From positions 1 through 59,234 of the IMG/VR virus record IMGVR_UViG_3300001282_000010: DNA of 59,234 nucleotides; one strand, 5' to 3'. Positions 46,634 through 54,215 of this stretch are shown one piece after another. The notes under the pieces are model-generated. The model was not told the DNA's origin. It ran no database searches and saw only the letters and a program-made list of their open reading frames with translations. Every line of letters begins with the position of its first letter. Within the stretch, counting starts at the first letter, position 1. The translations under genes were made by a program, and so were the position numbers. The stretch comes from a virus.

Positions 46634-46772
46634 ATGAACCGGCTCACTATCCTCTCAGCAGTCATACCGACAATTGATTCGGGGATGGCCTATGAGCGTG
46701 ACGGGAGCCTGGGTCTTTGTTGATGTGATCAAAAACGCATCCTTCAAAGACCCGCAGCAAGCGGGTTTTTTT
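46634..46772 (+). ncRNA. Small RNA/attenuator unit 1 with competing hairpins
   Basis: A transcript of about 139 bases between a promoter and a terminator. GGGTCTTTG (46711-46719) pairs perfectly with CAAAGACCC (46745-46753), but the terminator stem CCCGC/GCGGG (46751-46765) uses the same CCC, so the two exclude each other. A 29-codon leader ORF (46634-46723, MNRLTILSAVIPTIDSG...) begins at the expected transcript start and ends just after the upstream arm. Weaker helices TCATA/TATGA and GGCTC/GAGCC lie upstream. It could be a translated attenuator, riboswitch-like element or sRNA. Confidence 0.6.
46751..46772 (+). terminator. Intrinsic terminator
   Basis: CCCGC-AGCAA-GCGGG followed by seven T. 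Upstream bases CCC are also needed by the alternative helix described for the enclosing RNA. Confidence 0.88.
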
Positions 46773-46779
46773 ATGGCGG

Positions 46780-46808
46780 TTGACTCTTATTCAGTCTAGT
46801 GCTATAAT
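46780..46808 (+). promoter_or_regulatory. Sigma70-type promoter
   Basis: TTGACT, 17-base spacer, TATAAT (46803-46808) with TGC before it, placed directly after the terminator. No gene follows for over 400 bases, so it must drive RNA genes. Confidence 0.85.
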
Positions 46809-46879
46809 ACACACAAGAGACAGGAGAACAGCAGATTTTGCAAAGACCCTACACTACAGCGGGGCATTTGCAAAACAGG

Positions 46880-46908
46880 TTGACCAGTATTGCATAACAT
46901 GTTATACT
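46880..46908 (+). promoter_or_regulatory. Sigma70-type promoter
   Basis: TTGACC, 17-base spacer, TATACT (46903-46908); the second promoter in 100 bases before the Glu-Asp tRNA pair. Confidence 0.82.
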
Positions 46909-47245
46909 AGAGACTAGTTAGAAAGCAGCACAGTGCATTGACACAGTGTGAAGAGTTCGTTAAAAATTTGATTTTGTATAGTGTACCCAGATTTGGTTCT
47001 GGGCACTATATGTAAGCACAGTTATACAGGTTATCCACACCGTTAGGCAAGTGAATCAGGATTATGGGTTTGAACCCCGCCTTAGCAGGCTACTCCCTCG
47101 CTGGCATGAAATAGGCTCTCACTGAGAAATCAGTTGATCTGGACAAGCGGCGGAACATGTGGACAGTAATGACAGCGGATGGGCACAAGAGTAGCTCTCT
47201 TGTGTTTGATCAGCACGTTCCTGAATAAGTGTGTTTTCATATAGT
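46909..47245 (+). other. Untranslated leader with strong hairpins before tRNA-Glu
   Basis: No ORF of note. A 13-bp hairpin at 46977-47010 (TATAGTG+CCCAGA / TCTGGG+CACTATA, loop TTTGGT) and an 8-bp hairpin at 47184-47204 (CACAAGAG/CTCTTGTG) followed by TTT. A T-arm-like GGGTTTGAACCCC near 47067 could be a decayed tRNA, but I could not fit a cloverleaf. Confidence 0.5.
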
Positions 47246-47320
47246 GGAGCATTCGTCTATCGGTTAGGACAGTGGGTTTTCAGTCCACTAAGAGCGGTTC
47301 GACTCCGCTATGCTCTACCA
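47246..47320 (+). tRNA. tRNA-Glu (TTC)
   Basis: Acceptor GGAGCAT/ATGCTCT, D stem GTCT/GGAC, anticodon loop TTTTCAG, T arm GCGG TTCGACT CCGC, encoded CCA. Preceded by GTGTGTTTTCATATA, similar to the shared arm of the repeat elements downstream. Confidence 0.95.
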
Positions 47321-47460: not shown

Positions 47461-47560
47461 ACCATATAAAAACACATTGGAAGAGTATGCGTAACTCATA
47501 GGGCGTAGAATTATTATGCTCTGCAATTGACAATTGAGTGCCAGTGTGTTCCTATATGGT
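47461..47560 (+). ncRNA. Cloverleaf-like element A (long closing stem, three hairpins)
   Basis: Left arm ACCATATAAAAACACATTGG (47461-47480) pairs with 47541-47560 over 20 positions with two mismatches and one G-T pair. Inside are three short hairpins: GAGT/ACTC (7-base loop), GCGTA/TATGC (7-base loop) and CAATT/AATTG. This has the outline of a tRNA but with a closing helix almost three times too long and no T-loop. Its arms recur in elements B, C and D. Confidence 0.55.
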
Positions 47561-47630
47561 GGTAGATTAGTAGGAGAGTGCAGTCTTGTCAACAGGCTGT
47601 GGGCACAGGTGCAAATCCTGTTCACTATTT
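47556..47630 (+). tRNA. Anomalous tRNA-like gene with nine-base anticodon loop
   Basis: Acceptor ATGGTGG/TCACTAT pairs fully (with G-T), TA at 8-9, D stem mostly paired, anticodon stem CAGTC/GGCTG closing the nine-base loop TTGTCAACA (or a six-bp stem with loop TGTCAAC), five-base variable region, T arm ACAGG/CCTGT with loop TGCAAAT instead of TTCRANY. No CCA is encoded, unlike every good tRNA here. GTC (Asp) is the most natural reading. Its 5' end overlaps the right arm of element A. Confidence 0.45.
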
Positions 47631-47631
47631 T

Positions 47632-47733
47632 GTTATATAAAAACACATTAGAAACATAGGCAGACCTATGGGGTCCTGAGCAGAAACTCAGGAGCGTAGT
47701 TTATCGTAAAACTCTAGTGTGTTTCTATATGAT
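47632..47733 (+). ncRNA. Cloverleaf-like element B
   Basis: Arms 47632-47650 (GTTATATAAAAACACATTA) and 47715-47733 (TAGTGTGTTTCTATATGAT) pair over 19 positions with few mismatches. Three hairpins lie inside: CATAGG/CCTATG, CCTGAG/CTCAGG and AGTTT/AAACT. The same arm sequence as element A and the same three-hairpin plan point to one RNA family. Confidence 0.55.
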
Positions 47734-47858
47734 CAGAATCAAGTGGAAAGCAAGAGCCACAAAGTAAGCATTGCCGGGTCAGGGAGTGTGTCCGGGATGT
47801 ATAGGTCGCGCAGCCTATACAAACAACGATGGGGTAAGAGCCCTCATAACATTGCCAG

Positions 47859-47935
47859 CCATATAAGAACACATTTTTTAACTAGGCATGCCCCTGCAAG
47901 GGTTTAACAGCAGTTTTGAGTGTGTTTCTATATGG
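47859..47935 (+). ncRNA. Repeat element C with shared arms
   Basis: Arms CCATATAAGAACACATT (47859-47875) and AGTGTGTTTCTATATGG (47919-47935). The interior (43 bases) is shorter and holds one hairpin (CCC..GGG inside TTAA/TTAA). Between B and C (47734-47858) lies a 7-bp hairpin GTATAGG/CCTATAC and no gene. Confidence 0.5.
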
Positions 47936-47961
47936 TTAGTTGGAAATGAAAGTACAAAAAC

Positions 47962-48087
47962 GCGACACACCTTGAACAAGTGTCAGCAAGTACGGTACCA
48001 GTAGTTGTCCTGACTGTTCGACCCCGGAGGTGCTAAACCCGTAGATTCAGTTCCTACGCTCTCGCTCCGGGGATGTCGCTGTGTCGC
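47962..48087 (+). ncRNA. Large multi-helix RNA element
   Basis: GCGACACA (47962-47969) pairs perfectly with TGTGTCGC (48080-48087). Nested inside, CCCCGGAG (48022-48029) pairs perfectly with CTCCGGGG (48065-48072), enclosing hairpin CGTAG/CTACG (48041-48059). Two nested 8-bp helices are not expected by chance at this spacing. No known RNA family recognised. Confidence 0.5.
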
Positions 48088-48110
48088 AGCAGCACTAATC
48101 ACCAATTTTC

Positions 48111-48224
48111 GGAGACTGAAACTGATCTTGTGCAAGGCGCTGCTAGAACGGCGCGACTGCTGAGACCAGCGGATAAAGTGGACGGCACAGGTGTGTAGTG
48201 CATGTGTGTAGGCTGTCTCCACCA
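48111..48224 (+). ncRNA. tRNA-like element ending in ACCA
   Basis: GGAGAC (48111-48116) pairs with GTCTCC (48215-48220), followed by ACCA, as a tRNA acceptor would be. At 114 bases it is too long and no T-loop or anticodon arm can be placed. Internal helices are uncertain. A tRNA gene changed beyond recognition or a tRNA-mimic. Confidence 0.35.
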
Positions 48225-48230
48225 AATAAT

Positions 48231-48306
48231 AGGCTTTAGAGTGATTGGAAATCCTGTCTCTTTGACATAGAGATGTTGCGAGGTTTGAGTCCTCGATAGC
48301 CCACCA
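48231..48306 (+). tRNA. tRNA-Val (GAC), imperfect acceptor
   Basis: Anticodon stem TCTCT/AGAGA with loop TTGACAT, T arm CGAGG TTTGAGT CCTCG, encoded CCA. The acceptor AGGCTTT/ATAGCCC has two mismatches and the D arm is weak. A better Val tRNA (TAC) is at 57492. Confidence 0.75.
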
Positions 48307-48329
48307 AGTTTAGGGGTTCGTCTAGAAAC

Positions 48330-48452
48330 CGGTAAATTGTAGTTTGGTCTACAAGCCCTTGATTAGTTTATGGGCTCTCAACGTGAGATGCGTTGGTTCA
48401 GAAGTAACGTTACTGAACTAGGAGTGCGGCGAAGTACCGACGGGGTCCACCA
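48330..48452 (+). ncRNA. Multi-hairpin RNA ending in CCACCA
   Basis: CGGTA (48330-48334) pairs with TACCG (48435-48439). Between them are consecutive hairpins GTAG/CTAC, AGCCC/GGGCT, TCTCA/TGAGA and GGTTCAG/CTGAAC(T). The end GTCCACCA resembles a tRNA 3' end but no T arm precedes it. Four hairpins in a row without an ORF suggest a structured RNA. It is not a recognised tmRNA or RNase P RNA. Confidence 0.42.
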
Positions 48453-48459
48453 ATTTTAT

Positions 48460-48534
48460 GAGTAGAGCATAGATGCAGTAGAGACGGAAGTCTCCTATAC
48501 TAGTTACTGTGAGGTGCAAGTCCTCTGCTGCTCA
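48460..48534 (+). ncRNA. tRNA-like element with TGCAAGT T-loop
   Basis: GAGTAGA/GCTGCTC pair at six of seven positions. GA GG-TGCAAGT-CCTC imitates a T arm with the same TG start as the anomalous gene at 47556. The middle forms GAGAC-GGAA-GTCTC, a four-base loop that cannot read codons. No CCA. Probably a decayed tRNA or a non-decoding tRNA mimic. Confidence 0.4.
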
Positions 48535-48542
48535 ACCTTTTT

Positions 48543-48643
48543 TGTAGTTCCGGCCTGGTGCCGGAGTAAATGGCGTTGCGGATCCTTTAATGGCGTTAAA
48601 CATCGAAGCGCAAACCAATTGAGTTATGTCTCAGCCTACTACA
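48543..48643 (+). ncRNA. Cloverleaf-like element closed by TGTAGT/ACTACA
   Basis: A 6-bp closing helix (48543-48548 with 48638-48643) followed by TTTTT. Inside are TCCGGC/GCCGGA and TGAG/CTCA hairpins, and a direct repeat AATGGCGTT (48570 and 48592). The T run could make it a terminator, but the helix is short. Confidence 0.38.
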
Positions 48644-48883
48644 TTTTTAGTTTTGAGAGTGTCAGCAAGTGAAGTCACGCTGTCTAGGTTTCTTCGAAGG
48701 ACCAAAGCAGTAAAAGGTTAATGGGTTCAACTCCCACCCGCGGGCAACTGCGGAGGTCCGTAATGGGGACTGTACTGGACGGAGCCCAAGTGATATCCAT
48801 CGTGCTCGAGGTCAGGCTAGGCGGCCGGTAAGTCCTGAATAAATCTACGATAAACGCGGCGTAGGCTCTCAAATTCAATTCAT
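48644..48883 (+). other. Non-coding stretch with several hairpins
   Basis: No credible ORF. Visible helices: TCCGT/ACGGA (48753-48781), TCAGG/CCTGA, CTACG/CGTAG (48845-48863). A T-arm-like TGGG-TTCAACT-CCCA at about 48722-48737 has no matching acceptor, so a broken tRNA is possible. Confidence 0.4.
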
Positions 48884-48957
48884 GCGGGATTAGTTTAATG
48901 GCAAAATTAGAGATTTCCAATCTCCAGTCAAGAGTTCGATTCTCTTATCCCGCTCCA
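48884..48957 (+). tRNA. tRNA-Gly (TCC)
   Basis: Acceptor GCGGGAT/ATCCCGC, anticodon loop TTTCCAA on GAGA/TCTC, T arm GAG TTCGATT CTC, discriminator T, encoded CCA. Confidence 0.94.
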
Positions 48958-48962
48958 TGCAT

Positions 48963-49054
48963 GCCAGCGAGACTTGGTAGTCAGAGAGGTCTTATACACC
49001 TTTTAGCGCCAGATTAGCGTTCTTGAGAGAGTTCGATCCTCTCCGCTGGTACCA
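48963..49054 (+). tRNA. Type II tRNA with TAT anticodon (Ile-like reading)
   Basis: Acceptor GCCAGCG/CGCTGGT, anticodon stem GAGGT/ACCTT with loop CTTATAC (anticodon TAT), long variable arm AGCGC/GCGTT, T arm GAGAG TTCGATC CTCTC, encoded CCA. Long variable arms belong to Leu, Ser and Tyr tRNAs, not Ile, so the charging identity is unclear. Confidence 0.85.
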
Positions 49055-49061
49055 GTTTAGA

Positions 49062-49739
49062 TCAATTGCGCTTTGATAAAAAAACAGGTGTCTTGGGAAA
49101 GGGTACGGTATCAGCATTGGTTGTTTCGGACCAGGATGGCTCATCAGGCAACCCCAGATGCAAGCGTTCTAGATCAAGTAATAATATCAGTCTACGATGG
49201 TCCGTGAAGTTCCAGGCGCTGTGTAATCTTAGGTTGTTGAAGCCAAAGGATTCACTCCAATCAACCACTTCCCCATTGACCTCTAAGCCCAGATCACCAT
49301 GGGGCACAATCAAGGGTACATGAACACGTATGAATTTGCCTTCATGATTTTCATGGTCCCAGTGTCTGGCTATGGTACTGTGCGGTTCCAGAACCGAATA
49401 CGAAATTGACCGAACGACACTAAATCCAAAATAATCAATAATACTTGTTGCTGTTGGAAATTTTGCCTTTGATTCTTCAAAGGGTTGTGAGCCATAATAT
49501 GGAGGTTCGCCAAAATAAGTACCTTTGATTTGCAATATTTCCCAAGGAGATCCAGGGTGGGTTCTATTGCCCAATGCCCCTGTGATCTTGTTTTGCAAGA
49601 GGTCTAAATTATGCAACGGCTCGATACTGTGGAATTCAGGATATTGTACTAGAAATTCTTTTATGAGATCTTCTTTTTTGCTTTCAAAAAAATCCACGAA
49701 AGGAAGTTCTTTGCCACGATAAATTGTTTGGAGTTTCAT
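49062..49739 (-). CDS. Aspartyl/asparaginyl beta-hydroxylase-like protein (copy 1)
   Basis: 225 residues, minus strand. SYSVLEPHSTIARHWDHENHEGKFIRVHVPLIVPHGDLGLEVNGEVVDWSESFGFNNLRLHSAWNFTDHRRLILLLDL contains the family's first His region, R-x-H strand, second His (LHSAWN) and the 2OG-binding Arg (HRRLIL). These Fe(II)/2OG enzymes hydroxylate Asp/Asn in proteins or small molecules. It is a tandem paralogue of the next gene and opposes the tRNA transcription. Confidence 0.85.
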   Translation of the reverse strand: MKLQTIYRGKELPFVDFFESKKEDLIKEFLVQYPEFHSIEPLHNLDLLQNKITGALGNRTHPGSPWEILQIKGTYFGEPPYYGSQPFEESKAKFPTATSIIDYFGFSVVRSISYSVLEPHSTIARHWDHENHEGKFIRVHVPLIVPHGDLGLEVNGEVVDWSESFGFNNLRLHSAWNFTDHRRLILLLDLERLHLGLPDEPSWSETTNADTVPFPKTPVFLSKRN

Positions 49740-49748
49740 ACTACAGAG

Positions 49749-50456
49749 TTATCTCAAGTTCACTGCTGGTATAATCTCTTGAGGGCCATATGTCACTTTG
49801 TTGTGAGTCTTTTCAAAAGGAACTGCATCAGCATTTGTTTCTTCTGTCCACGGAGGCGCATCAGGCAACCCAATGTACGAGCGTTTTATATCAATCATCA
49901 ATACCAGTCTACGATAATCAGTGTTGTTCCAGACACTGTGTATGATTTGATTGTTGAATCCAAAGGATTCACTCCAGTCAACTACTTCTCCGTTGATCTC
50001 CATACCCAGATCACCTTCGGGTACAATCAAAGGTATGTGGCAACGAATAAATTTACCTGCACGATTTTCAGGTCCTGTGTGTCTGGCAATGATGCCGTTG
50101 GCTTCCAGTACAGAATAGGTCACGCTGCCAAGATTATCAAATCCAAAATAATCAATGATGCTTATCATGGTTGGAAATTTCGACTTTGATTCTTCAAAGG
50201 GTTGTGAACCATAGTAAGGAGGCTCACCGTAGTAGTTGCCTTTGACCTGTAGCAATTTCCAAGCAGTGCCTCTGCCCTGGGTGGTAGAAATTTTGGCAGT
50301 GATCTTGTTTTGCATGATCTCTGAATTGTTCAGCACTTCTGTGCTAGAGAAGTCAGGATACTGTGCTAGAAATTCTGCTACCAGACCGGCTTTTTTGCTT
50401 TCAAAATAATCCGCAAAAGGAAGTTCTTTGCCACGATAAATTGTTTTGTATTCCAT
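49749..50456 (-). CDS. Aspartyl/asparaginyl beta-hydroxylase-like protein (copy 2)
   Basis: 235 residues, minus strand, nine bases upstream of copy 1 in transcription. IYRGKELPFADYFESKK, YYGEPPYYGSQPFEESKSKFPT and GDLGMEINGEVVDWSESFGFNN are shared almost word for word with copy 1, and IHSVWNNTDYRRLVLMID keeps the His and Arg. In copy 2 the first iron-site segment reads ARHTGPENRAGKF where copy 1 has ARHWDHENHEGKF, so specificity may differ. Confidence 0.85.
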   Translation of the reverse strand: MEYKTIYRGKELPFADYFESKKAGLVAEFLAQYPDFSSTEVLNNSEIMQNKITAKISTTQGRGTAWKLLQVKGNYYGEPPYYGSQPFEESKSKFPTMISIIDYFGFDNLGSVTYSVLEANGIIARHTGPENRAGKFIRCHIPLIVPEGDLGMEINGEVVDWSESFGFNNQIIHSVWNNTDYRRLVLMIDIKRSYIGLPDAPPWTEETNADAVPFEKTHNKVTYGPQEIIPAVNLR

Positions 50457-50594
50457 GTATGACTCCGTTGTGAATTATTTATATGGTTGCACTACAGCAA
50501 ACAGATAATTACAGTTTAAGCAGATCATGTGGCGGAAAAACTCATTGACGATGGGCCCAACTGCCAGGGACAACGATTAAATCCTGAACCTCTG

Positions 50595-50664
50595 ACGTTT
50601 AAAGGTACGAGACTGATAGTCACAGTCAACTCATGCTCAGGAAGGTGGCAACACTTTTAAACGT
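50595..50664 (+). ncRNA. Cloverleaf-like element closed by 9-bp perfect stem
   Basis: ACGTTTAAA (50595-50603) pairs perfectly with TTTAAACGT (50656-50664). Inside are hairpins GACT-GAT-AGTC and GTG-GCAA-CAC (a GNRA tetraloop). It lies between the hydroxylase promoter side (50457-50594, no gene seen) and the next tRNA promoter. Confidence 0.48.
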
Positions 50665-50698
50665 ATGGCAGTCACATGATCAGCTTATCCAAACCTGG

Positions 50699-50727
50699 TT
50701 GACAACAAATCAAATGTGTTGTATAAT
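50699..50727 (+). promoter_or_regulatory. Promoter of tRNA-Met (CAT) 2
   Basis: TTGACA (50699-50704), 17-base spacer, TATAAT (50722-50727). Confidence 0.92.
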
Positions 50728-50750
50728 ACACGCATAGGATAAATAATTTA

Positions 50751-50823
50751 GCGGGTAGGGTGGTCACCACTCCGGTCTCATAAGCCAGGAGCATCGGCAG
50801 TTCAAATCTGTCACCCGCAACCA
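50751..50823 (+). tRNA. tRNA-Met (CAT), second copy
   Basis: GCGGGT/ACCCGC acceptor core, anticodon loop CTCATAA, T arm GGCAG TTCAAAT CTGTC, encoded CCA. If the acceptor is counted from 50750, pair 1-72 is A-A; an unpaired 1-72 is a mark of initiator tRNA, so this copy could be fMet. Confidence 0.9.
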
Positions 50824-50830
50824 TTTTGGC

Positions 50831-50850
50831 CGTGAAGTATAAATACTTCA
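50831..50850 (+). other. Perfect hairpin containing TATAAATA
   Basis: GTGAAGTA-TAAA-TACTTCAC, 8-bp stem directly after the tRNA. It contains the T4 late consensus TATAAATA (50838-50845), probably by chance of its palindromic core. May protect or help process the tRNA 3' end. Confidence 0.6.
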
Positions 50851-50870
50851 CACGAAGTTATCTTTGGTGG

Positions 50871-50899
50871 TTGACATCAAATGATAAATAAAGTATAAT
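50871..50899 (+). promoter_or_regulatory. Promoter of small RNA unit 2
   Basis: TTGACA (50871-50876), 17-base spacer, TATAAT (50894-50899): consensus sigma70 promoter. Transcript start expected near 50906. Confidence 0.92.
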
Positions 50900-50909
50900 A
50901 GGATTTAAG

Positions 50910-51038
50910 ATGAAAACAACTCTCTGTTCACTGTTGACGAAACCCATGTTTACCCAGGTATCCGCCTGGTCACATGCGTATGGTCGCATGAATAGTATTC
51001 CAGGCGTTCCGGGATCTCTTGAGAGGTGTGATGAGTAA
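50910..51038 (+). CDS. Possible small protein inside RNA unit 2
   Basis: 42 residues, MKTTLCSLLTKPMFTQVSAW... ATG lies about four bases after the expected transcript start, with AGGATTTAAG just upstream, so there is hardly any leader. The coding frame overlaps strong hairpins, which argues that RNA structure may be the selected feature. Confidence 0.35.
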   Translation: MKTTLCSLLTKPMFTQVSAWSHAYGRMNSIPGVPGSLERCDE

Positions 51039-51065
51039 CTAAGTTAACATCCGCAAATTCAAAAG

Positions 51066-51095
51066 ACCCTGGAACTAAAAACTCCAGGGTTTTTT
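51066..51095 (+). terminator. Intrinsic terminator of RNA unit 2
   Basis: ACCCTGGA (51066-51073) / TCCAGGGT (51083-51090) followed by TTTTTT. Confidence 0.92.
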
Positions 51096-51209
51096 CTTTT
51101 CAGCGTTAGATAGTGTGTATAGGAAACGAGATCCTGACCCGCACTCAAAACATGGGCAAATGGGCGGCCTGTAGGATAGAGTCTCTTTTGTGAGATGAAA
51201 AATTACAGC

Positions 51210-51273
51210 GTATCGAAGCACTCTCTATCCGTCGGGAGACACGTGGGTCCATCCATGAAGAGTGCTTCGATAC
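51210..51273 (+). ncRNA. 15-bp perfect inverted repeat hairpin
   Basis: GTATCGAAGCACTCT (51210-51224) and its exact reverse complement (51259-51273) enclose 34 bases containing CGTCGGGAGACACGTGGG. No T run follows. The surrounding 51100-51320 has no gene. An RNase III-type processing site, a regulatory RNA or a protein-binding DNA palindrome are all possible. Confidence 0.6.
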
Positions 51274-51325
51274 ACACATTGAGCTGATCAGGGCTGTGAT
51301 GCCGCAGACAGTGTGTAGAAATTTT

Positions 51326-51400
51326 GTATCTCTAGTGTAATGGCAGCACAACGGTCTCCAACACCGTTAAGTCAGGGTTCGAGTCCTTGGGGGTACGCCA
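51326..51400 (+). tRNA. tRNA-Trp (CCA)
   Basis: Acceptor GTATCTC/GGGGTAC with G-T pairs, anticodon ACGGT/ACCGT with loop CTCCAAC, T arm CAGGG TTCGAGT CCTTG, G-CCA end. Confidence 0.95.
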
Positions 51401-51405
51401 GATAT

Positions 51406-51482
51406 CGGTCCTTAACTCAACTGGATAGAGTGCTAGTCTTCGAAACTAGAAGTTGGCGGTTCAAATCCGTCAGGACCGACCA
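51406..51482 (+). tRNA. tRNA-Arg (TCG)
   Basis: Acceptor CGGTCCT/AGGACCG, D stem ACTC/GAGT, anticodon CTAGT/ACTAG with loop CTTCGAA, encoded A-CCA. Confidence 0.95.
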
Positions 51483-51489
51483 AGATAAC

Positions 51490-51564
51490 GGGGGATTGGC
51501 GTAATTGGGAACGCAGTAGCTTTGCAAGCTTCAGTCAGGAGTTCGATTCTCCTATCCTCCACCA
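51490..51564 (+). tRNA. tRNA-Ala (TGC)
   Basis: Acceptor GGGGGAT/ATCCTCC, D stem GCGT/ACGC, anticodon loop TTTGCAA, T arm AGGAG TTCGATT CTCCT, encoded CCA. The G3-T70 pair matches the alanine identity element. Confidence 0.95.
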
Positions 51565-51570
51565 TTATTA

Positions 51571-51659
51571 GGAAGTGTGTGCCGAATTGGTTGAAGGCAA
51601 CGGACTGTAAATCCGCCACATAAGAAACGTTGTAGGTTCGAATCCTACCACTTCCACCA
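51571..51659 (+). tRNA. tRNA-Tyr (GTA)
   Basis: Acceptor GGAAGTG/CACTTCC, anticodon CGGA/TCCG with loop CTGTAAA, long variable arm, T arm TAGG TTCGAAT CCTA, encoded CCA. Confidence 0.95.
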
Positions 51660-51660
51660 A

Positions 51661-51772
51661 GTCACTCTTAGAGGTTGGGTGTAACCTTCAAGTACTTTGA
51701 TGTACCAATCGTGGCAAGTGAAAGGCTCCACGTTAAATTTTTCTAGCAGAGCACAATGCTGCTAAGTATTTT
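51661..51772 (+). ncRNA. Multi-hairpin spacer between tRNA-Tyr and tRNA-Ser
   Basis: TCACT (51662) pairs with AGTGA (51717-51721), enclosing AGGTT/AACCT. CGTGG/CCACG and TAGCAG/CTGCTA hairpins follow. No ORF. Similar in plan to the other multi-helix elements but without shared arm sequence. Confidence 0.38.
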
Positions 51773-51775
51773 CCT

Positions 51776-51865
51776 GGAACGGTCCCATAATGGTATTGGA
51801 GCGGATTGCTAATCCGTCGAGTGGTGAAAGCCGCTTTAAGAGTTCGAGTCTCTTTCGTTCCGCCA
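51776..51865 (+). tRNA. tRNA-Ser (GCT)
   Basis: Acceptor GGAACGG/TCGTTCC, anticodon GCGGA/TCCGT with loop TTGCTAA, long variable arm, T arm AAGAG TTCGAGT CTCTT, G-CCA. Confidence 0.95.
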
Positions 51866-51874
51866 ACAATTTAT

Positions 51875-51953
51875 TCCGCAGAATCCGAGCTAGGTGCACG
51901 GACTTGACTGTTAATCAATGATTAGCTGGGTTCGAACCCCAGATGCGGAGCCA
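51875..51953 (+). tRNA. tRNA-Asn (GTT)
   Basis: Acceptor TCCGCA/TGCGGA, anticodon TTGA/TCAA with loop CTGTTAA, T arm CTGGG TTCGAAC CCCAG, G-CCA. Confidence 0.94.
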
Positions 51954-52018
51954 AATATAGTTCATACTCTTCATCTTAAGAAGTTAGGTCCCTGAACTGT
52001 TCTTTTTCGCCCTACTAG

Positions 52019-52082
52019 TACAATGGCAGTACACTGGTTTTGTAATCCTGTGATGGCAGTTCGATTCTGTCGTGGGGCACCA
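52019..52082 (+). tRNA. tRNA-Thr (TGT)
   Basis: Acceptor GCCCTAC/GTGGGGC, D stem GTAC/GTAC, anticodon loop TTTGTAA, encoded A-CCA. The anticodon stem has two T-T mismatches, unusual for a functional tRNA. Confidence 0.88.
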
Positions 52083-52085
52083 CTA

Positions 52086-52093
52086 TATAAATA
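52086..52093 (+). promoter_or_regulatory. T4-type late promoter motif TATAAATA
   Basis: Exact T4 late consensus, 18 bases before the leader ORF of the radical SAM gene and right after tRNA-Thr. Confidence 0.5.
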
Positions 52094-52110
52094 GTTTAAA
52101 GGAACAATTA

Positions 52111-52164
52111 TGAAAATTATGCTGTCACCTGATACAGCATTGATCAATTATGCCAAATTTTAAT
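52111..52164 (+). CDS. Leader peptide overlapping the radical SAM start
   Basis: 17 codons, MKIMLSPDTALINYAKF, with a good ribosome site (AAAGGAACAATT). It overlaps the first 15 bases of the radical SAM frame (52150), whose own ribosome site is poor, so its translation probably couples to the downstream start. Confidence 0.5.
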
Positions 52165-53634
52165 GTTATTCTTTTTACTGATATAGTTCGCAGAAATCCT
52201 AATGACTCAGTATTTATTCCTGCTATTGGCGCATACAAGTTAGCAAATACTCTGCGTGCCAGTGGGTATTCTTGTTTAGTAGTGAATCATGTGTCCGAGT
52301 TTACTATTGATGAAATTTATACATTATTAAATCGTGCCGTAGGGTCAGACACATGCATGATAGGGTTTAGCACCACATTCTATGATTTGATTACAAGTGT
52401 TGCAACTGGGCCGACGGCTGGATCTAATTCTAATATTCATGGACAAAATTTTAATTTATTTCCGCAAGGAGCAGATTTTGATGATCAAGTGTTTGCACAC
52501 ATCAACAAGTTGAATGCTGCAATAAAAATTGTCGCAGGAGGTACGATAGTACGACCAGAATTACGATGCAAGTATGCTGATTTCCTGGTGCTGGGATACG
52601 CTGAAGCAAACATAGTAAATTTGGTTGATCACATAAAACACGGTGTTGTATTAAAAAATAGCTATAAAAATATCAACAACAACAAGATTATCATCAACAA
52701 TGTGCTTGCAGAAGGATACGAATTTTCAAAGGATACCATGACATGGTGTGCTGAAGACGTTGTGAATCATACCAGATTACCTATCGAAATTGGCAGAGGA
52801 TGCATATTCAGCTGTGCATTTTGTTCGTACCCTATGAACGGTAAGACCAAACTAGATTTTATTAAAGATGCTGCCACACTGAAACAAGAACTATTGCATA
52901 ATTATAACAATCATGGAATTTGTATTTACATGATAGTAGATGACACTTTCAACGATTCAGTTGAAAAACTTGTGCAGTTAAGAGACATGATAGTATCGTT
53001 GCCATTTAAACCTGAGTTCTGGTGTTATGCAAGATTAGATTTGATTTGCACTCATCCCGAAACTATTCATATGTTATACGATATTGGAGTAAGATCAATG
53101 TTTTTTGGTATAGAAACGTTGGATAGAAAAAGTGGACAAGCTGTTGGTAAAGGCTATAATAGAGAAAAACAAATTGCAATGATATCAACCATTAAAGAAA
53201 CATACCATGACATGAATCTGCATGGCAGTTTTATAATTGGAACTCCTTACGAAACAATTAAATCAGCTGAGCGCACTCTGAAGGCGTTGAGTACACGTGA
53301 AATAAAATTAGACTCGTTCGCCTTTAGACCATTAATAATTGGTAAAAAAGCAAACGGCGCAGTATTTGAAAGCAGTATCACCAAAGATTATGCAAAATTT
53401 GGATACCGCGAAATGCCCAACGCACCACATCATAATTTTGTAATATGGGAAAATGACCAAATGAATTTTTTCCAAGCTCAACGACTCATTGAAAAATATA
53501 ATGATCTGCAAAGTAACACAGGTAGTCTCTTTTATGAAAAAGAACCTACTCCTCCCCATAAGTTTCTATCAGAATACAAAAGAAGATTACTTGAACTAGT
53601 TACGGATGAGAAGTATTTGCCAACATTTAGGTAA
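52150..53634 (+). CDS. B12-binding domain radical SAM protein
   Basis: 494 residues. The N-terminal Rossmann-type part (RASGYSCLVVNHVSEFTIDEIY..., KIVAGGTIVRPELRCKYADFLVLGYAE) fits a cobalamin-binding domain. The core has IEIGRGCIFSCAFCSYPM (CxxxCxxC), SMFFGIETLDRKSG and GSFIIGTPYET. It belongs to the same superfamily as the protein at 29023 but is not a close copy. AT-rich relative to most genes here. Substrate unknown. Confidence 0.87.
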   Translation: MPNFNVILFTDIVRRNPNDSVFIPAIGAYKLANTLRASGYSCLVVNHVSEFTIDEIYTLLNRAVGSDTCMIGFSTTFYDLITSVATGPTAGSNSNIHGQNFNLFPQGADFDDQVFAHINKLNAAIKIVAGGTIVRPELRCKYADFLVLGYAEANIVNLVDHIKHGVVLKNSYKNINNNKIIINNVLAEGYEFSKDTMTWCAEDVVNHTRLPIEIGRGCIFSCAFCSYPMNGKTKLDFIKDAATLKQELLHNYNNHGICIYMIVDDTFNDSVEKLVQLRDMIVSLPFKPEFWCYARLDLICTHPETIHMLYDIGVRSMFFGIETLDRKSGQAVGKGYNREKQIAMISTIKETYHDMNLHGSFIIGTPYETIKSAERTLKALSTREIKLDSFAFRPLIIGKKANGAVFESSITKDYAKFGYREMPNAPHHNFVIWENDQMNFFQAQRLIEKYNDLQSNTGSLFYEKEPTPPHKFLSEYKRRLLELVTDEKYLPTFR

Positions 53635-53926
53635 TTAAAATGATCCTGAGCAGCTGATAGGTTACAAGAATATTTGATGTAATCCGGCTAAACTCTGTCG
53701 CAGAGTGTTATTAAACAACTGAAGTGCAGCATAAGCAGCAAAGAAGTCATTGATCGAGCCTACGCAGTGTCCCGCGTGAGCTGCCGGGACAATTCGCATT
53801 TGAGTTGGCCCCACTACGCGGGTTGAAATATTATTTTTTAAAATTTCTGCGCAAATTCACACGCAGAAAATAACAACAGTCACACCAAAGAAAGAACTAT
53901 ATGAAACGAAAATCTCCTAAACTATA
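53635..53926 (+). other. Non-coding stretch with stable hairpins
   Basis: No ORF supported. Hairpins: ACTCTG-TCG-CAGAGT (about 53693-53707), GTCCCG/CGGGAC (about 53769-53791), TTTCTGCG/CGCAGAAA (about 53846-53871, 8 bp). Confidence 0.5.
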
Positions 53927-53964
53927 GTGTCAACTCCAGATCCTGTGTAGGTCCGGGTTGGCAC
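53927..53964 (+). ncRNA. Long hairpin before tRNA-Lys
   Basis: GTGTCAAC (53927-53934) / GTTGGCAC (53957-53964), with inner CCT/AGG, forming an almost continuous hairpin 25 bases ahead of tRNA-Lys (CTT). Confidence 0.45.
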
Positions 53965-53988
53965 GTGAAAGACAATTTTACATACCAA

Positions 53989-54063
53989 CCCTTCAAGATG
54001 TTAAGGCAGCATGCCGGACTCTTAATCCGTGACGTCCGAGTTCAAATCTCGGTGGAGGGACCA
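53989..54063 (+). tRNA. tRNA-Lys (CTT)
   Basis: Acceptor CCCTTCA/TGGAGGG, D stem ATGT/GCAT, anticodon CGGA/TCCG with loop CTCTTAA, T arm CCGAG TTCAAAT CTCGG, encoded A-CCA. Confidence 0.93.
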
Positions 54064-54066
54064 CAT

Positions 54067-54142
54067 GGGATCATAGTTAAGCGGTTATAACATCAGGCTT
54101 TTAACCTGTAAATCCTCGGTTCGAGTCCGAGTGGTCCTACCA
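54067..54142 (+). tRNA. tRNA-Lys (TTT)
   Basis: Acceptor GGGATCA/TGGTCCT, anticodon CAGG/CCTG with loop CTTTTAA, T arm CTCGG TTCGAGT CCGAG, encoded A-CCA. Its 3' end is part of the left arm of element D. Confidence 0.95.
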
Positions 54143-54215
54143 TAGATAAACGCACTTTCAATCTGAATTGACAGATACAAACAACCAAGGGGAGCCAAGT
54201 GTGTTTTTCTATGGT
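54139..54215 (+). ncRNA. Repeat element D with shared arms
   Basis: Arms ACCATAGATAAACGCACTT (54139-54157) and AAGTGTGTTTTTCTATGGT (54197-54215) pair at 17 of 19 positions plus one G-T. Inner hairpin TCTG/CAGA. The left arm begins with the tRNA-Lys discriminator and CCA, linking the element to tRNA 3' processing. Arm sequence is the same family as A, B and C, 6.2 kb away. Confidence 0.52.

Follow-up and report, generated by a model that had tools for sequence, protein, structure and literature searches.

Here, following up a first-pass annotation of 59,234 nucleotides (nt) of phage DNA (IMG/VR record IMGVR_UViG_3300001282_000010; 'the window', whose positions are used for all coordinates), we describe a class of structured RNA elements that lie among the transfer RNA (tRNA) genes of large phages not yet in culture. 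Each element is closed by a helix of about 17–20 base pairs (bp), the clamp, which encloses one of many unrelated interiors. Where a tRNA lies upstream, the first three nucleotides of the clamp are the CCA of that tRNA, paired to UGG. The elements are RNA-level structures of the tRNA-sense strand, and whole elements can take the place of the short spacers that normally separate tRNA genes. From these sequences we propose, with a probability of roughly 0.6, that a shared terminal clamp carries exchangeable small-RNA cargo that would be transcribed and released together with the tRNAs. Standard annotation has overlooked these numerous phage RNAs (about 290 families in one partial sample) because no family shares an interior; they can be found by a single rule of anatomy, namely that a long helix starts on a tRNA CCA. 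To our knowledge, small RNAs that share an RNA clamp and are exchanged like cassettes are without precedent, and we found no description of the elements in the open-access literature (subscription papers were not covered).

Distribution and strand of the elements

A two-arm pattern with a free interior of 31–60 bases is present in at least 120 IMG/VR stretches, as is a looser pattern with longer interiors (also at least 120), and a pattern of the same design has zero exact matches in 84,980 bacterial and archaeal species represented by one genome each. The resulting collection comprises 650 elements, 544 of them unique, in 237 IMG/VR loci (labelled here with L-numbers), compared with 10 in a reversed-sequence control. 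With the loci oriented by tRNA strand, the minus strand holds zero tRNAs, and the sense strand gives the higher score for 590 of the 650 elements. Source contigs extend to 524 kilobases (kb). The window phage has at least 262 kb, as L128 is identical to the window over 15 kb, and its DNA polymerase is nearest to those of the Rhizobiales phages Phosso (Sinorhizobium, 49%) and Atu_ph07 (Agrobacterium, 46%). The examined tRNA regions of these two phages contain no copy of the motif; in Phosso, a single weak stem follows tRNA-Val.

The elements match no catalogued RNA family in the Rfam 15 scans run (for one of these, the best 150 of 312 matches were listed). Scans at the gathering threshold, and laxer ones of two loci and a 2-kb stretch of the window, returned only tRNA, transfer-messenger RNA (tmRNA), GOLLD and chance-level matches. 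Nor are they tRNAs (RF00005): zero elements contain a tRNA detected by ARAGORN, and the tRNA matches from scanning the window elements and two element-rich loci fall on tRNA genes.

The clamp varies by compensatory change

The clamp was analysed in 109 distinct arm pairs picked by arm sequence alone, the first right arm after each left arm being taken and pairing not being a criterion; the arm profile itself derives from elements found with a paired-arm pattern. In this set, 91.2% of the cells are paired compared with 77.3% after shuffling, and double-changed cells number 249 compared with 76 (standard deviation (s.d.) 6). All 17 clamp pairs vary and 16 of them are compensated by two-sided change, a signal that is removed by a shift of register. 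True partners pair at 15.35 of 17 positions, compared with 13.33 (s.d. 0.075) for exchanged partners. The helix sequence therefore varies by compensatory change while a consensus is kept. The first-pass annotation had proposed a structured RNA family between tRNAs; checked for covariation and for conservation in relatives, the proposal is supported by strong signals of both.

The same annotation had described the arms as complementary. Pairing is confirmed, but it is never perfect in the main type: in the commonest type, a fixed A·C mismatch usually occupies pair 8, which is normally paired in other types, and a U·G wobble predominates at pair 16. Outside pair 8, G·U wobbles outnumber A·C mismatches by 209 to 51, an excess that marks the RNA of the tRNA-sense strand. 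Because the wobbles and the fixed A·C mismatch persist and are strand-biased, we rejected template-switch correction of inverted repeats as the source of the complementarity.

The clamp begins on the CCA of particular tRNAs

In a motif-free test, each distinct CCA-ending tRNA was examined for a 17-bp helix starting on the CCA itself. Such a helix is present in 315 of 3,164 tRNAs, compared with 3 when the downstream DNA was shuffled (160 of 1,795 compared with 5 in a first version of the test with fewer loci). Where a tRNA directly follows the element, the clamp commonly ends in the 5′ GG of that tRNA. The right arm ends in TGG in 138 of the 143 CCA-anchored elements (about 97%) that have no nearby downstream tRNA, which indicates that selection on the helix of the precursor RNA extends to the CCA; in 123 of the 143 the discriminator base is also able to pair.

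The helix is concentrated on three tRNAs. It follows 209 of 410 Lys(UUU), Glu(UUC) and Gln(UUG) tRNAs (51%) compared with 106 of 2,754 others (4%), counts that treat the loci as if they had no shared ancestry. The individual rates are 78% for Lys(UUU), 43% for Glu(UUC) and 27% for Gln(UUG), with Leu(UAG), Leu(UAA) and Lys(CUU) at about 15% and most others under 10%. The bias is also seen when elements matching two seed patterns are left out (91 versus 74; odds ratio of 10). A 2-thiouridine modification of the wobble base is common to the Lys(UUU), Glu(UUC) and Gln(UUG) tRNAs. The Lys(UUU) tRNA is the target of PrrC (PMC10264068), and Cas13a cuts Lys and Gln tRNAs (PMC11042736).

Elements of the window

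The elements of the window and the tRNA genes that adjoin them are as follows.

Element A: 47462–47559, + strand; arms CCATATAAAAACACATT and AGTGTGTTCCTATATGG; three internal hairpins; arm and pairing scan, RNA folding.
Element B: 47633–47732, + strand; arms TTATATAAAAACACATT and AGTGTGTTTCTATATGA; three internal hairpins; interior family 11.
Element C: 47859–47935, + strand; arms CCATATAAGAACACATT and AGTGTGTTTCTATATGG.
Element D: 54140–54214, + strand; arms CCATAGATAAACGCACT and AGTGTGTTTTTCTATGG; its first bases are the CCA of tRNA-Lys(TTT).
Element E: 47006–47244, + strand; 239 nt; 3′ end 1 nt from tRNA-Glu.
Element F: 51208–51275, + strand; arms GCGTATCGAAGCACTCT and AGAGTGCTTCGATACAC, equally given as GTATCGAAGCACTCT..AGAGTGCTTCGATAC.
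tRNA-like gene between A and B: 47556–47629, + strand; CCA not encoded; Rfam RF00005, 35.1 bits.
tRNA-Lys(TTT), carrier of D: 54067–54142, + strand; the left arm of D starts with its 3-nt CCA; ARAGORN.
tRNA-Glu(TTC): 47246–47320, + strand; 1 nt 3′ of element E; ARAGORN.

A joint scan for arm sequence and pairing recovered A, B, C and D, each within 1–2 bases of where the first-pass annotation had placed them. Their RNA folds (z-scores of −5.2, −6.5, −3.5 and −5.1, respectively) reproduce the three internal hairpins described for A and B, and D does begin on the CCA of tRNA-Lys. A wider scan of the window added E (z = −2.95) and F (z = −5.8). Allowing up to three mismatches, the right-arm pattern has eight matches in the window against 0.15 expected (0/100 shuffles). 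The right-arm sequence earlier noted before tRNA-Glu is present but not solitary, as it is the 3′ arm of the larger element E. The tRNA-like gene, which ARAGORN misses, shares its first 4 nt with the last four bases of A; in this region, tRNA-like and clamp elements thus follow closely on one another.

Among the loci examined, the interiors of A, C and D occur only in this phage (that of A in L057 and L128/L244, an exact-match search likewise returning the same phage only). The interior of B recurs in other phages (L010, L146, L152, L153, L163, L204 and L229). A T-arm was not seen by sequence in A, B, C or D. We rejected the arms as intrinsic terminators, as no terminator in our scan coincides with them on the sense strand. 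Perfect sigma-70-like matches in the window are found at 50699, 50871 and 58006.

Elements are exchanged between junctions

In 74 pairs, the flanks match and the interiors are unrelated. L022 and L035, for example, are identical in both 72-nt flanks and have an interior identity of 49%, the level of unrelated sequence; at the site of element D, the flanks of L084 and L128 (the window phage) are 99–100% alike and the interiors differ. In a further 83 pairs, one interior is found in different flanks or tRNA junctions. One interior can also occur with different arms that are always mutually complementary, family 1 having at least five arm types. The Lys–His junction is empty in L005 (spacer GTTTATG) and filled in L022, between nearly the same tRNAs, demonstrating that a whole element can replace the normal short spacer, which measures 5–8 nt at most junctions in the same arrays. 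Elements also stand in tandem rows about 3 nt apart (L042, L110 and L241).

Profile searches of 20 contigs of 130–525 kb, some of them fragments, found neither a tyrosine integrase (PF00589) nor a Y1 HUH transposase (PF01797). This favours homologous recombination, and we infer that exchange takes place by recombination in the arms and the flanking tRNA genes. The earlier statement that the elements are no known mobile elements needs amending, as interiors swap and move as cassettes, although neither enzyme was found.

Interiors

The interiors of the 544 unique elements fall into 292 unrelated families, with a cargo length of roughly 30–250 nt. Within families of at least four members, the interior helices contain 222 double-changed cells compared with 70 in shuffles, as counted on structures predicted from the same alignments. 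Chance would place the T-arm motif in 0.55 families; it is present in 26. Roughly half of the 26 have it directly against the right arm, as a tRNA has its T-arm against the acceptor stem; family 289 looks like the body of a tRNA with the clamp in place of the acceptor stem, and in families 103, 113 and 183 the T-arm is close to the 5′ end, as in permuted tRNAs. Mimicry of anticodon loops was rejected, being in no more than mild excess (14 versus 8.2). The earlier suggestion of tRNA mimics is supported for only a minority of the 292 families.

Proposed mechanism and alternatives

We propose that the array is co-transcribed and that ribonuclease (RNase) P, acting at the 5′ end of the next tRNA, together with 3′-end processing at the CCA, would free the clamped RNA, the blunt double-stranded end of which should shield it from exonucleases. 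In the precursor the clamp would hide the CCA, such that tRNA release and clamp integrity would compete. The few common arm types may serve as short shared homology for recombination between these virulent phages, leading to the shuffling of cargo. The least certain step is the action of the cargoes, which might be directed, as mimics or decoys, at the host machinery that handles or attacks tRNAs. Our leading guess for the cargo, tRNA mimicry or counter-defence, is a tentative one, made because of the shared chassis, the rapid turnover, the confinement to lytic phages, the T-arms and the placement after tRNAs attacked by defence systems. The more specific possibility that jumbo phages carry a rapidly exchanged repertoire of clamp-ended RNAs on the CCA of precisely the defence-attacked tRNAs (Lys, Glu and Gln), which would form a modular arms-race system of decoys or inhibitors of tRNA-cutting immunity shuffled between phages by recombination in a shared clamp, we regard as doubtful. 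The elements are nonetheless candidates for RNA-based counter-defence tied to the Lys, Glu and Gln tRNAs and, as such, bear on the question of why phages carry tRNA arrays.

Several observations weigh against a released, clamped cargo. Singletons make up 192 of the 292 interior families, the folds of individual interiors are little more stable than those of shuffled sequence (mean z = −0.46), the covariation within them was counted on structures drawn from the same alignments, and the T-arm is confined to about 9% of families. Two sets of interiors were without a match in 50,697 phage records of cultured phages, T4 included. The statistics of the tRNA bias ignore the shared ancestry of the loci which, being related by descent, do not permit the p-value to be taken literally. 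Furthermore, 354 of the 650 elements are not beside a detected tRNA and would need another route of excision, and the CCA:UGG pairing implies a role in the uncut precursor that a pure release model does not explain.

This pairing speaks for a valve acting in cis on tRNA maturation, in which the stem would capture the discriminator and CCA that RNase P and 3′ exonucleases require as a partner, thereby delaying or regulating maturation of the Lys(UUU), Glu(UUC) and Gln(UUG) tRNAs, with the interior tuning or sensing. Even among CCA-anchored elements that lack a downstream tRNA, about 97% have the CCA paired to UGG, and often the discriminator is paired too. Helix formation thus also precedes cutting, and the strong bias to three tRNAs is in keeping with such a valve. 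We nevertheless consider it unlikely: interiors at the same tRNA are unrelated between phages, which would be odd for a sensor; for more than half of the elements, a tRNA immediately upstream was not detected, and some elements stand in the closely spaced tandem rows. Alternatively, the stem could be a substrate through which host RNase III or a comparable enzyme separates the tRNAs, much like the stems around precursor ribosomal RNA, the interior being filler. The size range of RNase III substrates includes stems of about 17–20 bp, which the clamp fits, and the elements are located between tRNAs. Against this, the interior helices covary and the same interior families turn up in different phages; spacers of 5–8 nt suffice at most junctions of these arrays, and no phage-encoded RNase III was found by profile search, making this reading improbable. 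The processing signals put forward in the first-pass annotation are possible, yet they leave the conserved, covarying interiors unexplained.

Clean empty and filled sites, swapping, the presence of one interior in many places and the tandem rows would all suit a selfish DNA cassette with terminal inverted repeats (attC-like or similar to a miniature inverted-repeat transposable element (MITE)) that inserts after a tRNA CCA and acts as folded DNA. Such a cassette would not account for a wobble bias that marks RNA of the tRNA strand, for arms that compensate instead of staying identical or for covarying interiors; neither integrase nor Y1 transposase was found in the 20 large contigs, and no target-site duplication was noticed, rendering this origin distinctly improbable. 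That the arrays are a graveyard of decayed tRNAs, with relics retained by chance between the arms, might be suggested by the T-arm kept in 26 families and by the tRNA body without acceptor stem of family 289, but decay produces neither covarying arms and interiors nor recurrence in unrelated contexts. The covariation largely refutes this explanation, to which we assign very little weight.

Comparison with known systems

The species 1 and 2 RNAs of phage T4 (rnaC and rnaD) are, like the elements, small stable RNAs of unknown function beside tRNA genes; rnaD starts 1 nt after tRNA-Arg and rnaC contains a T-arm. Unlike the elements, neither has a long terminal helix anchored on a tRNA CCA, and they are two fixed genes as opposed to hundreds of exchangeable families. 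Given this lack of a CCA-anchored stem, and with no interior of the two sets searched matching the phage collection that includes T4, the elements were rejected as T4 rnaC or rnaD. Bacterial Y RNAs (YrlA), which associate with Ro60, have a terminal stem and a variable, often tRNA-like domain. The elements share this plan of stem plus variable domain but have many unrelated interiors and no Rfam Y RNA match, and Ro60 (TROVE, PF05731) is absent from the 20 contigs in a search with a positive control, leading us to discard this candidate.

Integron attC sites and MITEs likewise have conserved complementary ends, a variable middle and cassette behaviour; the elements differ from them in their RNA-strand wobble bias, their compensatory arms and the lack of a detected integrase or Y1 transposase. 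Integron attC sites were rejected on the absence of PF00589 from the 20 contigs and on the element ends, CCA..TGG (R and L boxes were not scanned for), and IS200/IS605-type or repetitive extragenic palindromic (REP) elements on the absence of PF01797.

GOLLD and ROOL, which occur near tRNA arrays, are also structured phage RNAs without a known function (PMC12286853). They are single large families with Rfam models, many GOLLD RNAs exceeding 800 nt, whereas the elements match no Rfam model. Some of these arrays also contain GOLLD, encoded separately from the elements (L064, L113 and L225); L113 also has a permuted tmRNA match, and the GOLLD match of L225 encloses a tRNA match. Phage-encoded tRNAs that evade tRNA-cutting defences (PMC10264068, PMC11555353) belong to the same arrays; the elements differ from these in not being translatable tRNAs, and any protective role for them is putative.

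Related RNAs and neighbouring stretches

A second group of larger RNAs (about 100–250 nt), with arms beginning CCATTTGTTTTG.. and CCATTAGTTTAG.., is placed on the CCA of tRNA-Glu(UUC) or tRNA-Leu in L007, L010, L016, L034, L037, L064, L087, L103, L117 and other loci; interior family 0 has 19 members. Directly after a tRNA in L010 (6904–6957), a match to Dictyostelium class I RNA reaches 40.4 bits against a cut-off of 41.5. We set this AT-rich match aside as probably due to chance and not an element, although the terminal stem and the CAGCAA motif both fit. In the window, 47955–48090 is structured (fold z = −3.0) with other closing arms, GCGACACA..TGTGTCGC, and is perhaps a larger relative of the elements.

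Other non-coding stretches of the window are also conserved. Positions 48649–48880, unannotated and about 79–86% conserved in L051, L023, L094, L035 and L024, contain the T-arm-like GGGTTCAACTCCC and are probably another RNA gene of the array. Positions 51037–51281 (70–81% in L006, L034, L012, L028, L101 and L021) include element F and, at 51066–51090, a terminator-like hairpin. Positions 46744–47020 and 50512–50786, the latter overlapping tRNA-Met, are about 85% conserved in L078 and carry sigma-70-like promoter matches. Protein-coding genes of the region include a radical S-adenosylmethionine (SAM) protein within the tRNA array (52150–53634) and, on the opposite strand, two tandem aspartyl/asparaginyl beta-hydroxylase genes (49062–50456).

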